A stretch of DNA of 64,000 bases from Bryobacteraceae bacterium. GTDB taxonomy: Bacteria > Acidobacteriota > Terriglobia > Bryobacterales > Bryobacteraceae. The stretch spans positions 186,001 through 250,000 of the forward strand of contig JANWVY010000004.1 of assembly GCA_025056455.1 (NCBI GenBank), written 5' to 3'. Below the pieces are notes generated by a model that worked only from the letters and a program-made list of their open reading frames with translations, was not told the origin of the DNA and ran no database searches. The position numbers and the translations under genes were made by a program. Of this stretch, positions 4,143 to 11,516 are shown piece after piece; within the stretch, counting starts at the first letter, position 1; each line of letters begins with the position of its first letter.

Positions 4143-4190
4143 GACGGGCTGGCTAGAAGCCGTGGTCCAGCTTGGTCCCGCCCGTCTTTT
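4143..4190 (+). terminator. Candidate Rho-independent terminator after the GH109-like gene
   Basis: GACGGGC (4143-4149) pairs perfectly with GCCCGTC (4180-4186), followed by TTTT. The 30-base loop contains smaller self-complementary pieces (GGCTAGAAGCC and CCAGCTTGG). It sits just after the stop at 4129 and before the first glycosyltransferase, separating the two transcription units. Confidence 0.5.
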
Positions 4191-4276
4191 ATGGCGCAGG
4201 AAGGGAAGTTCGTTTTGCAGTCATTCCAGAAAGGCATAGTGGCAGACTAGAAGAACGTCGCTTTGCTGCGTGTTCG

Positions 4277-5452
4277 ATGGCCAGCATTCTATTTTTGTCG
4301 CCCGAAGCACCCTATCCACTGGCAGGAGGTGGCTGCTACCGGACGGCCTCGCTGTTGGAGTTCCTCGCCCGACGCTATGACTTAGACCTTGTCTTATTTG
4401 CCGTAGCGGGCGCATCGGATCCAGAGGCTTCGCTGCCCCGAGGTTTAGCCCGAAACGTGTTCAAGCTGCGTTTGCCCGCACACTCCAAGCGATGGGCGCC
4501 GCGGGTCGCTCGCAATGTCTTGCGCCTGGCCCGGGGCATCCCGCCTCTGGTTGACCGTTACGGCCACCTTGAAGCTCAACTGAAGGATCTCCTCCAGGGC
4601 CGGCGTTATGACCTCGGCTGGATCGAACATTTTTGGTGTGCTCCCTACTGGGAGGTACTAAAGCCGGCTTGCCGCCAAATGGTGCTCGATTTGCACAATC
4701 TGGAGTCAGAGTGGTTTGACCGTGCGGCAGAGATAGCGAGTGGCCCGCTTGCGATGGCCTACCGGCGGTTCGCCGCGCGTTGCCTCTCTCTTGAACGGAA
4801 ATGGATTCCGAGATTTGATCACGTGCTGGTACCGTCTGAACGCGAACTGGCGAAGATTCCTTACCCGCACGTTCGAGTCTATCCGAACAGCATTCCCTGG
4901 GTGGTTCAGCCGCCAAGCAGACCGGATCAATCGATCGTATTCTCTGGCAACCTCGAGTACCGACCAAATCAAGACGCCGTTCGCTTCTTCGCCCGCAACG
5001 TGTGGCCACGGCTTCGACGTCGGTGGCCGAATCTCATATGGCGCATCGTTGGCAAGAATCCCGCTGGCGTGGCCCGTGAGCTCGCGGGAGATCCCCGGAT
5101 TGTGCTCACGGGGCCTGTGGCTGACGCCACTACGGAACTGGCCCAGTCGCAAGTGGCGATCGTACCGGTGCGGAGTGGGAGTGGAACGCGAGTAAAAATT
5201 CTTGAGGCTTGGGCGGCAGGTTTGCCAGTGGTCTCCACAGCCTTAGGCGCGGAAGGTCTTCAAGCCATTCCCGGAGTCCACTTCCTGACTGCTGATTCAG
5301 CTGAGGATTTTCTCACTGCCATTTCCTTGCTACTAGAAGCGAAGCCCGAACGGATGCGCCTTGGCTCGGCCGGCAGAAGACTCTACGAAGAGCGCTATAC
5401 ATGGGAGGCGGCCTGGAAGCTGCTACAGGGAGAAAAATTCCTTCCACCGTGA
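4277..5452 (+). CDS. Family 4 type glycosyltransferase
   Basis: 391 residues from the ATG at 4277. The upstream in-frame extension back to 4172 has no domain character. GT-B fold: the N-terminal half opens with the hydrophobic strand ASILFLSPEAPYPLAGGG. The C-terminal donor domain has FSGNLEYRPNQDAVRFF (about 222) and GTRVKILEAWAAGLPVVST (about 302), signatures of sugar transferases associated with exopolysaccharide systems (the PEP-CTERM/EpsH1-associated type is the closest I recall). It would transfer a nucleotide-activated sugar to a lipid-linked or glycan acceptor at the cytoplasmic membrane. It is the first gene of a co-directional block, and the next gene begins 23 bases downstream. Sugar and linkage are unknown. 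Confidence 0.85.
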   Translation: MASILFLSPEAPYPLAGGGCYRTASLLEFLARRYDLDLVLFAVAGASDPEASLPRGLARNVFKLRLPAHSKRWAPRVARNVLRLARGIPPLVDRYGHLEAQLKDLLQGRRYDLGWIEHFWCAPYWEVLKPACRQMVLDLHNLESEWFDRAAEIASGPLAMAYRRFAARCLSLERKWIPRFDHVLVPSERELAKIPYPHVRVYPNSIPWVVQPPSRPDQSIVFSGNLEYRPNQDAVRFFARNVWPRLRRRWPNLIWRIVGKNPAGVARELAGDPRIVLTGPVADATTELAQSQVAIVPVRSGSGTRVKILEAWAAGLPVVSTALGAEGLQAIPGVHFLTADSAEDFLTAISLLLEAKPERMRLGSAGRRLYEERYTWEAAWKLLQGEKFLPP

Positions 5453-5475
5453 GCGTCTATACTGAAAAGACGCGC

Positions 5476-6630
5476 ATGCGTTTCGCCATTGACGCCCATG
5501 CGATCGGGCAGCATCAGACGGGGAACGAAGTTTACATCCGAAATTTGCTAGATCGGCTGGCAAGCGTCGATTCTGAGGCAGACTTCATCGCCTATTTTTC
5601 CTCGCCGGCGGCCGCCAGCCGGCTTCCCAACCGCATTCTCCGCCGCTGGGTTTCCTCAAACCCCTTTGTTCGCCTCGGCTGGGAGCTTGGCCGGAAGATT
5701 AACGCTGAGCGGCCAGCCTTGCTCCACGTGCAATACACCGCGCCTTTGTGGAGCAAAGTGCCGATCGTGGTGAGCGTTCACGACGTGAGTTTTCTAGAAC
5801 ACCCGGAGTTCTTTTCTTTTCCCCGTGCTTTGCAGCTGCAGCAAACCGTCAAGCGTACGGTCGAAAGGGCTGCGCGCGTGCTCACCGTGAGTGAGTTTTC
5901 GCGTGCCGCCATCGAACGGCACTATCCTGCGGCTCGGGGGAAGACTTGCGTGACGCCAAATGCGGTTTCTGCCGCCTTCCGACCTATTCCGCGCGACCAA
6001 GCCCGCGCACGCGTGCAACGACTTCTCGGTTTCTCTTCACCCTTCCTTCTGAATGTGGGCGACCTCCAACCCCGAAAGAATCAAACGGGTTTGATCCGCG
6101 CCTTCGAAGAATTTCTTCGCCACAACCCGGGTCAGCCCCACCATTTGGTGATCGTCGGACAAAGCAAGTTTGACGGTGAACTGGTCAAGCAAGTCGCTGC
6201 GCGCTCGGCTGTCTCCTCTCGCATTCACTTTACTGGCTACGTGGACGACGCGTTTCTGCACCTGCTTTATAACGCCTGCGAGTTATTTGTTTTTCCCTCC
6301 TTTTACGAGGGCTTCGGCATCCCGATCCTTGAAGCCATGGCCTGCGGCTGCGCAGTGGCCTGCTCTAAGACGTCGGCGATGCCCGAGGTTGCTGACGGCG
6401 CCGCCATTTTCTTTGATCCCCGCTCGACAGCCGAAATGACGCGCTCGATTCAGGATTTGGTACTCAACCCTGAGATGCGAAGCCGTTACCAACGCTTGGG
6501 CCTGGCCCGCGCTTCCGTGTTTTCCTGGGATCGCACAGCGCGCCAGACGCTCGAGGTTTATTATGAAGTAGCGGGATCGGACCGCCGATTTGCCCCAGAC
6601 AGGCATTCGATAGGAGCAGGAAAATCATGA
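5476..6630 (+). CDS. Glycosyltransferase, GT4 family
   Basis: 384 residues from the ATG at 5476. An open extension to 5401 overlaps the preceding gene and lacks family character. The N-terminus MRFAIDAHAIGQHQTGNEVY is the typical acceptor-domain start. The donor domain has NVGDLQPRKNQTGLIRAF (about 192) and FYEGFGIPILEAMACG (about 275) with the conserved nucleotide-sugar-binding glutamate. Similar to mannosyl/rhamnosyl-type GT4 enzymes of lipopolysaccharide and exopolysaccharide synthesis; the exact sugar is not readable. Its stop codon region overlaps the start of the DUF3108 gene by four bases (ATGA), which indicates translational coupling. Confidence 0.88.
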   Translation: MRFAIDAHAIGQHQTGNEVYIRNLLDRLASVDSEADFIAYFSSPAAASRLPNRILRRWVSSNPFVRLGWELGRKINAERPALLHVQYTAPLWSKVPIVVSVHDVSFLEHPEFFSFPRALQLQQTVKRTVERAARVLTVSEFSRAAIERHYPAARGKTCVTPNAVSAAFRPIPRDQARARVQRLLGFSSPFLLNVGDLQPRKNQTGLIRAFEEFLRHNPGQPHHLVIVGQSKFDGELVKQVAARSAVSSRIHFTGYVDDAFLHLLYNACELFVFPSFYEGFGIPILEAMACGCAVACSKTSAMPEVADGAAIFFDPRSTAEMTRSIQDLVLNPEMRSRYQRLGLARASVFSWDRTARQTLEVYYEVAGSDRRFAPDRHSIGAGKS

Positions 6631-7307
6631 TTTGGCCCTTGCTAGCGAAAGCTTTGGTTCTGGCATCGCTATGCCGCGCCGATCTGACGGCTCCCGAAGT
6701 GCTCAACTATAGTATCAACTGGCCGAGCGGCCTAAGCCTGGGCGAAGCGACCCTCAAGGCCTCGCGGCAAGGCGAGGAAACTTGGAGTTTCGAACTCGAG
6801 TTCCAGGCTGCCGTCCCCGGTTTTGCTCTCGCTGACCGGTTCACTTCACTTACCAACGCCAATCAATGCTCGGCCTCTTTCGATAAGGACATCCACCACG
6901 GCAAGCGCAAATCCCGGGAAAGGATTACTTTTGACAGCCAGGCGGGAATTGCGACTCGCGAAACGCTGGGGGGTGGAAAGTCCACGCTTCAAATCCCGCC
7001 CTGTGCGCGCGATGCCCTGGCCTTTGTTTTTTATCTCCGCCGGGAACTGGCCCAAGGGCGAATCCCCGCGGCTCAGCGCGTTTTTTACGGAGCCCCCTAT
7101 CACGTCAAACTGGATTTCGGCGGAGTGCAGCGGATCCGGCTCGGCGATCGCTTTGTGGAGGCTGATCGCATTCAGGCCAGCGTGAAGGGACCAGCCTCAG
7201 AGTTTAGCCTGGAACTATTTTTTGCGAGGGATTCGGCTCGTACGCCCCTGCTGGTGAAGCTTCCCCTCAGCTTGGGGTTGTTCGCCATGGAGCTGGTTGG
7301 CGAGTGA
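6627..7307 (+). CDS. DUF3108 domain protein, exported
   Basis: 226 residues with an N-terminal hydrophobic leader (MIWPLLAKALVLASLCRA) and then a beta-rich region matching the DUF3108 pattern: a start like YSINWPSGLSLGEATLKA, a central RDALAFVFYLRR segment, and a late LFFARDSARTPLLVKLPL strand. Proteins of this type are periplasmic and of unproven function, often near outer-envelope or polysaccharide genes. It overlaps the previous gene by four bases (ATGA) and the next by four (GTGA at 7304-7307), so it is co-translated with two glycosyltransferase genes and may be an envelope partner of the pathway. Confidence 0.75.
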   Translation: MIWPLLAKALVLASLCRADLTAPEVLNYSINWPSGLSLGEATLKASRQGEETWSFELEFQAAVPGFALADRFTSLTNANQCSASFDKDIHHGKRKSRERITFDSQAGIATRETLGGGKSTLQIPPCARDALAFVFYLRRELAQGRIPAAQRVFYGAPYHVKLDFGGVQRIRLGDRFVEADRIQASVKGPASEFSLELFFARDSARTPLLVKLPLSLGLFAMELVGE

Positions 7308-9394
7308 AGGTGGCCTTTTATTCACCGCTGCCTCCCGCAAAAAGCGGGATTGCGGACTACTCGGCAGCGCTGCTGGAGGAGCTTCGCAAACTACTAGACG
7401 TCGTTGTGATCAGCGATCCGGACACGCCGGTCCCCCCTCATGACCTTGCCCTCTACCAGATTGGCAATAACGAACACCATCTACACGCTTATCAAAGCGC
7501 CCTAGAACAGCCTGGGGTCGTGGTCCTGCACGAGGCCAATCTCCACCACCTCATCTGTGACCTCACCATCCGGCGCAACGACTGGGATGCCTACGTCGCC
7601 GAAGCTGAATACAACGGCGGTCCTGCGGCGCGCGCTCACGCCGAACAAGTGCGCGCCCAAAAGGTTGGCCCAGATTACGAGGGCGTGCCCATGTTGCGGC
7701 GCCTGCTGGAAAGATCAAAAGCCGCCATTGTTCACAGCCGCTTCGTGGAGCGCCAGTTGCGAAATTCTGGATTTCAAAAGCCGGTGGCAGTCATCCCGCA
7801 CGGCGGCTGGCTGCCTACCATTTCGCGCCGGATGGATTTTCGTTGCCGCCTGGGTCTTTCCGAGGATGCGCTACTGGTCGGAATTTTCGGCTTTCTCAAG
7901 CCTTACAAACGAATCGCGGAATCGCTGCGTGCGTTCCGACGGGTGGTGCCGCTGATTCCGGACGCCAAAATGATTCTTGTCGGCGAACCACACCCCGAAC
8001 TGCCATTAGCCTCGCTCATCCGTAGCTTGCATCTAGAGGCCCACGTCCGCCTGCTTGGCTTCACCCCGGTTGAGGATTTCATGGGCTACCTCGATGCGGT
8101 GGATCTCGTGTTGAACCTCCGCTATCCCACCGTAGGGGAAAGCTCGGGTACTTTGATGCGCGCCCTCGGTTTAGGCAAGGCGGTCCTGGTTTCTAACGTC
8201 GGATCCTTCGCCGAACTTCCTGACAACATCGTTCTCAAAGTCCCTGTGGATGCTTCTGAAGAAGACTTCCTGTTTGAATGTTTAAATCTTCTTCTTTCGC
8301 GTCCGAGCCTCATGCGGCAGCTCGGCAGGAACGCGCGCCGCTGGGTCGAGCAGGAATGTAGCTGGGCGCGCGTGGCGAGATTGTACGCAGACTTTCTTCG
8401 CTGTGTCGCGGAGGGACAGCCATGGCCCGCACTTTCTCACTCACCTTCCACTTCTCCTGTTGCTGCGCCAGCGCCCCCTGACAATTCCGCTTCTGCCTCC
8501 CCTGGTGAGACAGCGCCGACCTCTGTCCTGGTGCGCGCTCTGGCCGAGTTAGAAGAACCGAATCGAGACGCTTTGGTTGAGCCGCCTCCAGCCGTCGATG
8601 AAAGCGCCACGCATTTGCAGGACTACCTCAAAAGCTGGGCTTGCGATCCGGACTCGCGCCAGTATCTCCAGACGCACCTTACGCGCCTGCGCCGGACTCT
8701 GGAGATCATACCGCCGGGCACAGCCGCAGACCGGATTCTCGAAATGGGCGCCTATCTTCAGATCACGCCTGCGCTCCGGACAAAGCTCGGCTATGGCGAG
8801 GTACGCGGTTGCTATCTCGGCCCCGCTGGCCAGATCGATTCGAAGCGCGTCGTTTCCGCCGAGGGCGAAGAGTTCGTCTGCCAAATCGACCTGTTCAATG
8901 CCGAAAAGGATCGTTTCCCCTATCCCGATGGTCACTTTGCGACTGTGCTTTGCTGCGAGTTGATTGAACACCTCGAGCACGACCCGATGTTTCTCATGTC
9001 GGAAGTGAACCGCGTGCTGCGGCCGGGCGGACACCTGGTGCTGACAACTCCCAATATCGCCTCCTTGCGGGCCATCAAAGCCATTCTCATGGGCTACCAC
9101 CCGGGTTTTTTCCCCGCTTATCTAAAACCCGCGGCCAGCGGAGGCATCGAGGCTCGTCATGCCCGGGAATACACTCCGCAGGAGATCACCATGCTGTTTC
9201 TAGACGCCGGCTTCGAAGTCACGCTCTTGGAGACAGGGCCCTTCCTGGACGCCCCCAGACCCGAAGAGCACTGGATCCGGCACCTGCTCGAGCGCTACTT
9301 GCTCTCGACCCAACATCGCGGGGATTGCATCTACGCGGTAGGCCGAAAAGTCGGGCCGGTGAAAGAGCGCTATCCTTCGTGGTTGTATCAATAG
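7304..9394 (+). CDS. Fusion of GT4 glycosyltransferase and SAM methyltransferase
   Basis: 696 residues from a GTG at 7304 overlapping the previous stop. Residues 1 to about 365 form a glycosyltransferase: MKVAFYSPLPPAKSGIADYS start, GFLKPYKRIAESLRAF (about 196), and GESSGTLMRALGLGKAVLVS in the donor domain. A Pro/Ala/Ser-rich linker spans about 372-410. From about 440 a class I methyltransferase follows, with EVNRVLRPGGHLVLTTPN (about 566), the post-motif of the Methyltransf_11 type. The fusion would add a sugar and methylate it or a neighbouring residue, as in capped O-antigens. The reading frame runs cleanly through the linker. The next gene starts directly after the stop. Confidence 0.85.
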   Translation: MKVAFYSPLPPAKSGIADYSAALLEELRKLLDVVVISDPDTPVPPHDLALYQIGNNEHHLHAYQSALEQPGVVVLHEANLHHLICDLTIRRNDWDAYVAEAEYNGGPAARAHAEQVRAQKVGPDYEGVPMLRRLLERSKAAIVHSRFVERQLRNSGFQKPVAVIPHGGWLPTISRRMDFRCRLGLSEDALLVGIFGFLKPYKRIAESLRAFRRVVPLIPDAKMILVGEPHPELPLASLIRSLHLEAHVRLLGFTPVEDFMGYLDAVDLVLNLRYPTVGESSGTLMRALGLGKAVLVSNVGSFAELPDNIVLKVPVDASEEDFLFECLNLLLSRPSLMRQLGRNARRWVEQECSWARVARLYADFLRCVAEGQPWPALSHSPSTSPVAAPAPPDNSASASPGETAPTSVLVRALAELEEPNRDALVEPPPAVDESATHLQDYLKSWACDPDSRQYLQTHLTRLRRTLEIIPPGTAADRILEMGAYLQITPALRTKLGYGEVRGCYLGPAGQIDSKRVVSAEGEEFVCQIDLFNAEKDRFPYPDGHFATVLCCELIEHLEHDPMFLMSEVNRVLRPGGHLVLTTPNIASLRAIKAILMGYHPGFFPAYLKPAASGGIEARHAREYTPQEITMLFLDAGFEVTLLETGPFLDAPRPEEHWIRHLLERYLLSTQHRGDCIYAVGRKVGPVKERYPSWLYQ

Positions 9395-10618
9395 ATGGTT
9401 GGCTATCACGATGTAGTCGTGGAAGTAGAGCCAAGGTATACGCTCCGTGTCCGCTTCGAGCTGGAGAACCGCTCCGCTGGGGACTGGTTGCGAAGCGAGC
9501 AGGTGGCACTTGGTAGCCAGATCTTCGACCCTCAGACCGCTTTGTTTCTCACAGAGGGACCCTGGCTCGCTCTGGCCCGTGATCTTCCGCCCGGTGCTCG
9601 GTTCCCGGTAGAGATTTGCATCGAGCTTCCCCCTCCGCCCGGTCCGTACCGTGTTTATATTTCACCGCGGGATTCGCGGCGCGGCTGGTTTTACTTGCAT
9701 CAGGCGCCTCTGCTGGTGATTGACGTCACGGTGACCCATGAAAACGCGATCGTCGAGCGCCTGGTCCAGACTTCACTGCGGCGCATGCGCTGGCAAAACT
9801 TCCCTTTCGCCCTCAGACAACTCCTGGTCAGCCCATTCGTCGAACTCTGGCGGGCAAAAAGCTTGATTGCTTCCATGGTGCGCCGCGACCTGCTGGCGCG
9901 CTATCGCGGATCGTTCGGCGATGCGCTGTGGGCCGTGTTTCATCCGCTGCTACTCATGGCCACCTATTTTTTTGTGTTTGGCTTGGTGTTGCAAACCCGT
10001 TTTGGCGCCAACCCGAGCCGTACCGGATATGCGCTCTACTTCTTGGCGGGCATGTTGCCCTGGCTTCAGTTCAGCGAGCCCGCTGCACGCGCCACTGTAG
10101 TCGTGTTGGAACACCGAATCTTCGTGAAAAAAGTAGTGTTCCCAGTTTCCATTCTGCCCGTAAATCTCGCTCTTACCGGCCTAGTCACGAATTTGCTTGC
10201 AACTTTGCTGTTTCTTCTCGCCCTTGGCGTCCTTCAAAGCGGCGTTCCGTCAACGGTGCTAGCCCTGCCGCTTCTTCTCGTTCCTCAAATCTTGTTTACG
10301 CTAGGTGTCTGCTGGTTTCTTGCCGCCACGAGCGTGTATCTCCGCGACCTCGCTCAGATGATTGGACCGCTGCTTACACTCTGGTTTTTCGTTACGCCCA
10401 TCTGCTACCCCGAGACGTCCTTGCCGGCGGAGCTGGCGCCAGTGCTCCTCAAAAACCCCATGTTTCAACTGGTCCGTGGTTACCGGCAAATCTTGCTTGA
10501 AGGACGCCTGCCTGAGGCGTCTTCCATGATCAAACTCTGGATGGTGGCCATCCTCACCTTCTTTGCCGGCTATGCCTGGTTCACTCGTTTAAAGAAACAT
10601 TTCCCCGATCTTGTCTAG
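9395..10618 (+). CDS. ABC-2 type polysaccharide export permease with N-terminal beta domain
   Basis: 407 residues. From about residue 150 the protein is a Wzm-like permease: SLIASMVRRDLLARYRGSFG precedes six predicted membrane spans (LLLMATYFFVFGLVL onward), ending in the usual FARLKKHF-like tail (here FTRLKKHFPDLV). Such permeases move lipid-linked polysaccharide across the inner membrane. Residues 1 to about 115 are an unusual addition: a beta-sandwich-like segment with NRSAGDWLRSEQV, ARDLPPGARFPVEI and PPPPGPYRVYIS, resembling the accessory domains found on Wzt ATPases and O-antigen methyltransferases. No ATP-binding partner is encoded in the window. The start directly abuts the preceding stop. 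Confidence 0.85.
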   Translation: MVGYHDVVVEVEPRYTLRVRFELENRSAGDWLRSEQVALGSQIFDPQTALFLTEGPWLALARDLPPGARFPVEICIELPPPPGPYRVYISPRDSRRGWFYLHQAPLLVIDVTVTHENAIVERLVQTSLRRMRWQNFPFALRQLLVSPFVELWRAKSLIASMVRRDLLARYRGSFGDALWAVFHPLLLMATYFFVFGLVLQTRFGANPSRTGYALYFLAGMLPWLQFSEPAARATVVVLEHRIFVKKVVFPVSILPVNLALTGLVTNLLATLLFLLALGVLQSGVPSTVLALPLLLVPQILFTLGVCWFLAATSVYLRDLAQMIGPLLTLWFFVTPICYPETSLPAELAPVLLKNPMFQLVRGYRQILLEGRLPEASSMIKLWMVAILTFFAGYAWFTRLKKHFPDLV

Positions 10619-10706: not shown

Positions 10707-11516
10707 ATGCCGATCGTGACCTTCCCCTGGCCGGTGATCCGTCCTCCGCTGGAATGGATTGACCAGGCGATTCCTGTCTTTTCGCCCCGCAGTGAGGAGG
10801 AGCGCAGCAAGGACCGTTTCGATGGCAATCCTTCCAACGTGGACATCTACACGGGCCTAGCCTATGGCTACCGCTTGTTTGGCGAAGGCGCCGCCGAAGG
10901 CCTGTACCGCACGATGAGCTCTCTTGTCTTAGCGCAACGGCAGTGCGAGCGGCTGCTCGATATCGGTTGCGGCGTCGGCAGAATGCTTTATGATTGCGCA
11001 CCGGCCCTTCCGCACACCCAATTTACGGGCGTTGACTACTCTTACGAGATGTGCCGGCGCGCCGCTCGAATCCTTCAGTCGAATGGCGAGCTTCGATTGC
11101 CGGCTTGGCAACATCGGGGGATGAGCCAAGCCGTTTTGCGTGGGGTGGGCCCTTTGCCCAATGTTCACCTTGCTCAGGCGAACGCTCTCGACTTGCCTTT
11201 TGCTGCCGCTACGTTTGACACGGTCACTGCGACGCTGCTTTTGTGCCGCCTGAGCGACCCCTTGCGCGGACTGGCCGAGATGGTCCGGGTGTTGCGGCCC
11301 GGAGGGAGGCTCCTGCTTGCAACGCCCTTCGGCTATCTTGACGCGGTTCAATGGCAGGCCCTGGCCGGTCCTGGTAAACTCCGGGAGATTCTCTCCTCGT
11401 TTGGCTTCCGAATTGAAGAGTGGTTTGACGGATTGGTGTACCGGGAGGTGATTGACGCAAGCGGCAATGCGCACGACTGGCGCGTTACGGTTGCAGCAGC
11501 GACCCTTGTTCCTTAG
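10707..11516 (+). CDS. Class I SAM-dependent methyltransferase
   Basis: 269 residues. SAM-binding motif I is LLDIGCGVGRML (about residue 82), followed by FTGVDYSYEM (motif II acidic residue) and EMVRVLRPGGRLLLATPFG (post-motif). This is the UbiE/Methyltransf_11 pattern, a family that methylates small molecules, quinones or sugars. Its position directly after glycan export genes suggests a glycan or lipid carrier as substrate, which is inference. The spermidine-synthase-like gene begins at or just after its stop. Confidence 0.8.
   Translation: MPIVTFPWPVIRPPLEWIDQAIPVFSPRSEEERSKDRFDGNPSNVDIYTGLAYGYRLFGEGAAEGLYRTMSSLVLAQRQCERLLDIGCGVGRMLYDCAPALPHTQFTGVDYSYEMCRRAARILQSNGELRLPAWQHRGMSQAVLRGVGPLPNVHLAQANALDLPFAAATFDTVTATLLLCRLSDPLRGLAEMVRVLRPGGRLLLATPFGYLDAVQWQALAGPGKLREILSSFGFRIEEWFDGLVYREVIDASGNAHDWRVTVAAATLVP

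Follow-up and report, generated by a model that had tools for sequence, protein, structure and literature searches.

The gene at positions 9395 to 10618 raises the question of what a β-sandwich domain is doing in front of an ABC polysaccharide permease. Positions are those of the window, the stretch of 64,000 nucleotides of a Bryobacteraceae bacterium contig that was analyzed here. The ORF encodes 407 amino acids and combines a β-sandwich front (residues 1 to 122, positions 9395 to 9760, forward strand), termed the N-domain here, with a complete Wzm/TarG-type ABC-2 permease body (residues 141 to 407 plus the stop codon, positions 9815 to 10618, forward strand), and the two are connected by a predicted helix at residues 128 to 153 (positions 9776 to 9853, forward strand) in the full-length AlphaFold2 model, which has a mean pLDDT of 88.2. 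In the portions of the literature considered here, sensing of the finished chain by ABC exporters has been worked out for carbohydrate-binding domains (CBDs) borne by the ATPase. The first-pass annotation had noted a stretch of similar character ahead of the permease here and had suggested that this could place substrate recognition on the membrane subunit.

The identity of the permease body is supported by both sequence and structure. In a Pfam scan, residues 158 to 367 matched ABC2_membrane (PF01061) with 56.3 bits (cut-off, 26.9), and the first 142 residues alone matched no Pfam family. The modeled body aligns with TarG of the teichoic acid exporter TarGH (9cfl, Z 28.4, from residue 141; 6jbh, Z 25.1) and with Aquifex aeolicus Wzm (7k2t, Z 26.9; 7k2t and 6m96, Z of about 25 to 27, from residue 153 or 154), with 247 to 265 residues aligned at Z scores of 25 to 28, so that about 140 residues precede a complete Wzm. 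The protein is best explained as the transmembrane half of an exporter of the Wzm-Wzt type that would carry lipid-linked polysaccharide. It resembles Aquifex WzmWzt (7k2t, 8dl0, and 8dku; PMC9445017 and PMC6379404) in the fold of the permease body and in that the Aquifex substrate is described as having a methylated cap and a methyltransferase domain is encoded next door here. However, Aquifex Wzm starts at the equivalent of residue 153 or 154 without an N-domain, TarG likewise has no N-terminal sandwich, its alignment beginning at model residue 141, and here, unlike in Aquifex, the ATPase is encoded on a different contig from the permease. The permease-borne sandwich is thus a new architecture within a known type of transporter. 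Among the titles listed in literature searches, none dealt with a permease-borne domain fusion, and a 2019 Glycobiology census of the organization of carbohydrate-binding modules (CBMs) may mention divergent CBM placement.

Whether the N-terminal segment is translated together with the permease depends on the start codon. The gene directly upstream (positions 7304 to 9394, forward strand) encodes a glycosyltransferase and a SAM methyltransferase in one protein (Glycos_transf_1 and Methyltransf_23/11 over the cut-off), referred to as the GT-methyltransferase. A methyltransferase domain is thus encoded just upstream, in agreement with the first-pass annotation, and the gene is conserved before the permease. 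Its TAG stop codon abuts the ATG of the permease in the same frame (positions 9392 to 9397, forward strand). In a set of 56 loci, which includes that of the window and has some genomes in duplicate, the RYPxWLY-type tail of the GT-methyltransferase ends at the permease start in 51, and the first base of its stop codon lies between -16 and +13 nucleotides from the chosen permease start in 50 of these 51 and at -119 in the other; 18 of the 51 have an ATGA-type overlap. This conserved stop places the permease start ahead of the N-domain and not near residue 140. In addition, other permeases with the same fusion were found. Full-length sequences, with incomplete and duplicate rows left out, gave an alignment of 43 rows (the window and 42 others), all of which align across the N-domain and the permease body alike. 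Within the N-domain, G55 is invariant, Q42, D45, P46, P79, G83, and Y85 are conserved in at least 90% of the rows, and the conserved motif is GWQxFDPxT...EGEW. The dN/dS ratios of the 25 closest pairs listed, duplicates included, range from 0.06 to 0.42 for the N-domain and from 0.04 to 0.13 for the body. On these comparative grounds, the N-terminal segment is predicted to be translated together with the permease, and the fusion claimed for this gene is borne out. The shared frame and the single TAG between the two ORFs would fit a true start near residue 140, or a segment that belongs to the GT-methyltransferase through stop-codon read-through, but both are very improbable, since the two genes are in one frame at just 9 of the 51 loci, the window's among them, the GT-methyltransferase frames at the relatives' loci examined bear no match to the domain even beside domain-less permeases, and the 43 rows run continuously through domain and permease. 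The shared frame in the window therefore looks coincidental, and there is probably neither read-through nor a split fusion.

Two related origins were also considered. A read-through fusion of the GT-methyltransferase with the permease was rejected, as the frame offset differs among relatives, and the idea that a domain at the C terminus of a methyltransferase crossed into the next gene is unsupported, with no such domain on the GT-methyltransferase frames at the relatives' loci. The domain family does occur C-terminally on some other methyltransferases.

The gene run that includes the permease, on the forward strand, also contains a glycosyltransferase (positions 4172 to 5452; Glyco_trans_1_4, 82.1 bits), a GT4-type glycosyltransferase (positions 5401 to 6630; Glycos_transf_1, 103.5 bits), and a DUF3108 protein (positions 6627 to 7307; PF11306, 50.4 bits), and a second SAM methyltransferase, this one stand-alone, is encoded after the permease (positions 10707 to 11516; Methyltransf_11, 69.7 bits). 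The methyltransferase part of the GT-methyltransferase weakly resembles, among solved structures, MitM (6e-5) and a D-glucose O-methyltransferase (0.008), and the protein is a candidate chain-modifying or chain-terminating enzyme.

The N-domain is modeled as a sandwich, in line with the first-pass annotation, but is not a Wzt_C domain by sequence. Residues 1 to 121 modeled alone form a β sandwich of eight strands with a mean pLDDT of 96.4, and relatives keep the domain. In a Foldseek search, the CBD of Aquifex Wzt (8dky) ranked fifth (E value, 8.1e-4; TMq, 0.64; root mean square deviation, 2.9), and further Wzt CBD chains (8dl0, 8dne, 6o14, 5hno, and 2r5o) were among the best matches; TRAP, GH2/GH3, and NPC2 sandwiches scored as well. 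With a second structure aligner, the FW domain of ILRUN (6vhi, Z 9.8) and sandwiches of GH2 type (Z up to 10.5) ranked high, and no Wzt CBD was among the 50 matches it listed. Wzt_C (PF14524) matched neither the window's N-domain nor, at E values up to 1, any of 41 members, and hhalign gave an E value of 0.054 between the N-domain and 16 Wzt C-terminal parts, the hhalign values being single comparisons. The proposed likeness to Wzt C-terminal domains may hold for the fold, in which other sandwiches are equally close, and does not hold for the sequence. The position also differs, with the N-domain ahead of the permease and Wzt_C at the C terminus of the nucleotide-binding domain (NBD).

A second possible relative is the FW, or N_BRCA1_IG, domain (PF16158). 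Of 41 domain rows, 13 match the PF16158 HMM weakly (best E value, 0.0012), none of the 41 exceeds the curated cut-off, and the window's own N-domain is unmatched. The N-domain shares with ILRUN the Ig-like sandwich noted above, but unlike FW domains it is fused to an ABC permease. Several tryptophans are conserved in it, present among the 43 rows at position 31 in 31, position 41 in 30 (a serine in the window), position 57 in 34, and position 98 in 36, and these may correspond to the four conserved tryptophans of the FW family. Bacterial FW contexts are described as mainly XRE-type regulators, and eukaryotic FW domains are reported to bind proteins (PMC9233695 and PMC9582228). The N-domain may thus be loosely related to FW/N_BRCA1_IG domains, with FW as a possible distant relative.

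Other proteins of the phylum carry related domains. Such domains were found in 55 of the 247 phylum genomes searched, two of these being the permease itself. The non-permease loci returned numbered 28, and in the 19 of these that were scanned the domain is found on methyltransferases (eight), O-antigen ligases with Wzy_C (two), glycosidase-like proteins (three, one below the cut-off), a sulfatase (one, below the cut-off), a protein with PKD repeats (one), and proteins with at most a PF16158 match (four); PF16158 exceeds its cut-off at three of the 19 loci (L078, L080, and L081). The two ligase proteins (L077 and L101) come from other families of the phylum and have the domain inside the chain. 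In profile-profile comparisons, the N-domain matched 35 such related domains with a probability of 99.6 and an E value of 6e-24, a likeness that is due in part to selection because the 35 were found with the N-domain's own profile. The same 35 domains matched the Wzt C-terminal parts with a probability of 87 and an E value of 4e-6, which allows a distant common origin. A sequence search of solved structures with the N-domain profile found no credible match (best E value, 0.65), and no second copy was found in the bacterium's own genome at E values up to 10. The common factor of methyltransferases, ligases, and glycosidase-like proteins looks like a glycan, and the N-domain has the look of an accessory module from polysaccharide enzymes that was placed on an exporter. 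By description, a similar case is the methyltransferase-kinase terminator of Klebsiella O7 (PMC11231755), in which an Ig-like/CBM module accompanies a terminating enzyme with a methyltransferase; there the module is on the terminator and here it is on the permease.

Among the genomes sampled, fused permeases were seen in a limited group. The closest relatives in named genomes are mostly metagenome-assembled genomes (MAGs) of Bryobacterales or other Acidobacteria, in a scan that picks up close relatives only, and the fusion survey covered the phylum. One relative, in a MAG titled Bordetella parapertussis (L055), has a fused permease and falls among the Bryobacterales rows, and the title looks wrong. 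In the class sample (299 genomes), matches extend well into the N-domain in the window's family and in four others (f3, f4, f80, and f83), and another family of the class (f2) has one match into the N-domain (G039). Among the matches listed for the phylum sample (297 genomes), those from outside the class begin at residue 113 or later unless they cross stop codons. In a quick, midpoint-rooted tree of the body only, with 23 of 67 branches open, all 52 fused rows fall inside a single 63-row group (support 92, not starred). The N-domain is truly absent in seven rows nested in the fused clade (L114, L128, and L130 to L134), and each of the seven still has the GT-methyltransferase gene before the permease; in L132, about 550 nucleotides separate the two. 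Four more rows were not counted as losses, namely, L054 and L113, which lie near contig breaks and whose genomes have the domain on a further contig (L062 and L112, respectively), L116, which by eye has a short divergent N-terminal part, and L129, which ends at a contig edge. In G005, the permease gene breaks at about residue 160, close to the ends of two contigs (L112, positions 4534 to 5097, and L113, positions 6358 to 7131), and RYN_19 shows a similar break (L062/L054); assembly or an inserted repeat may account for these splits. A single origin of the fusion followed by several losses is the simplest reading of a tree that is weak inside. The seven nested permeases that lack the domain and still follow a GT-methyltransferase indicate that the N-domain is dispensable for this type of exporter.

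These losses bear on two other roles for the domain. It could be a protein-docking module that recruits the GT-methyltransferase or other assembly enzymes and couples synthesis to export with no glycan contact. The adjacency of the two genes in 51 of 56 loci and the reported protein binding of FW domains would suit such a module, but the pair persists in the seven domain-less loci and ligases and glycosidase-like proteins carry members of the domain family too, and we consider docking possible but somewhat unlikely. Alternatively, the domain could extend the permease in a structural or regulatory way, such as by bracing the dimer or contacting the ATPase, and have no specific ligand. The several losses and short versions (fewer than 100 residues in 7 of the 43 rows) and the faster divergence of the N-domain than of the body (median identities to the window of 36% and 58%, respectively) are in keeping with this role, which is nevertheless quite unlikely in view of the conserved motif, dN/dS ratios below 1, and the recurrence of the domain in other polysaccharide enzymes.

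Whether the sandwich replaces the one on the ATPase was addressed through the likely partner. Among the matches listed, which extend down to E values of about 8e-55, no Wzt-like ATPase is in the window. A class-I Wzt was defined as having at least 55% identity to the ATPase beside the fused permease of G039, with the next group at no more than 50%, and the line for class-I permeases was drawn at the gap between E values of 2.7e-80 and 3.7e-52. A class-I ATPase occurs in 33 of 34 genomes with a class-I permease (that of G028 is a fragment) versus 2 of 27 without one. The ratios are 27/28 versus 2/9 within the window's family (P = 2.6e-5) and 6/6 versus 0/18 outside it (P = 7e-6), with kinship ignored beyond this family split, and the exceptions are G021, with the permease only, and G004 and G033, with the ATPase only. 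In 5 of the 33 genomes, the ATPase gene is immediately beside the permease, starting 849 to 1,298 bp from the permease match, and it adjoins the permease at 7 of 16 distinct relative loci (L132 to L134 and L136 to L139), so that adjacency is seen in some order- and class-level relatives. The bacterium's own class-I ATPase is on another contig (G000:C26:203524-204717), and no Wzm-type permease or GT-methyltransferase was seen by eye in the 18 kb around it. It is probably the partner of the permease, as judged from co-occurrence and from linkage in some relatives. This ATPase matches Aquifex Wzt from NBD to CBD (8dku, E value of 3.3e-81, residues 27 to 417 on 7 to 392) and contains Wzt_C (1.2e-33), which is also found in three permease-linked copies, and it therefore shows the CBM on the NBD that belongs to the terminator-plus-CBM traits of capped-glycan export. 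Since the likely partner ATPase retains Wzt_C, the N-domain looks like an addition rather than a replacement, and cytosolic sandwich domains of two kinds are probably present in the exporter. The idea that recognition moved to the membrane subunit is consequently unsupported, and a relocation of Wzt_C from the ATPase to the permease was rejected, given also the hhalign result.

The fusion, the fold, the domain family, the conserved gene order, and the co-occurrence with the ATPase come directly from the computations, and a role can be proposed from them. In Aquifex, the Wzt CBD is described as binding the methylated cap and is thought to raise the local substrate concentration (PMC9445017), and the N-terminal interface helix of Wzm is described as leading to the LG loop, which contacts the cytosolic gate helix (PMC6379404). 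The N-domain precedes the interface helix and so should be cytosolic and close to the entry point; by analogy with Wzm, a cytosolic location is most likely. With a methyltransferase domain encoded next door and the domain family shared by methyltransferases and ligases, the leading candidate for the role of the N-domain is glycan binding, to which we assign a probability of roughly 0.5. The GT-methyltransferase would modify or, as we infer, cap the finished chain; the N-domain, held before the interface helix near the cytosolic entry, would bind the glycan (cap, adaptor, or chain) and raise its local concentration or check it before entry; and Wzt_C of the partner ATPase would perform the classical check of the cap. 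Counting against glycan binding are the commonness of Ig-like sandwiches, the reported protein binding of eukaryotic FW domains as a possible distant relative, the loss or shortness of the domain in relatives, the absence of W98 in 7 of the 43 rows, and, for the pairing with the ATPase, the three exceptional genomes.

A further component may be involved. The bacterium's own genome encodes a degenerate Wzt of 311 amino acids (C26:274328-275260, around L111:6329-7303, minus strand) with an intact Wzt_C (1.4e-29) and an NBD part with just a sub-threshold ABC_tran match. In 24 degenerate Wzt rows whose NBD-like part can be read, there is no helical subdomain with its signature and no Walker B glutamate is seen; 10 of these rows retain the Walker A lysine, and the other 14 have lost it. 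Across 23 rows, the median identity to the own copy is 60% for the Wzt_C part and 48% for the NBD-like part. Orthologs occur in 28 of 61 genomes, being partial in G005, G017, G025, and G034 and at 43 to 44% identity in G023, G044, G047, and G049. They are present in 28 of 36 genomes with a class-I permease or ATPase versus 0 of 25 with neither, and eight permease-bearing genomes lack them. The neighbor of the own copy, murB, was not found beside the copies in other short loci, so co-occurrence alone ties this protein to the exporter. From its features and co-occurrence, the degenerate Wzt may be a third exporter component. A heteromeric O-antigen-type exporter with three cytosolic sandwich components, i.e., the permease N-domain, an active Wzt with its Wzt_C, and a pseudo-Wzt that would be catalytically dead and use the CBD dimer to associate with the active Wzt, is a speculative and on balance unlikely extension; if true, it would be an asymmetric, dedicated glycan-sensing exporter.

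The N-domain hints at an additional control over which sugar chains are exported. A permease-borne domain beside the CBD of the ATPase would be a natural system in which to separate cap recognition from recruitment, and a role would be gained for the domain family that is attached to methyltransferases and ligases of polysaccharides in this phylum and lies mostly below Pfam thresholds.
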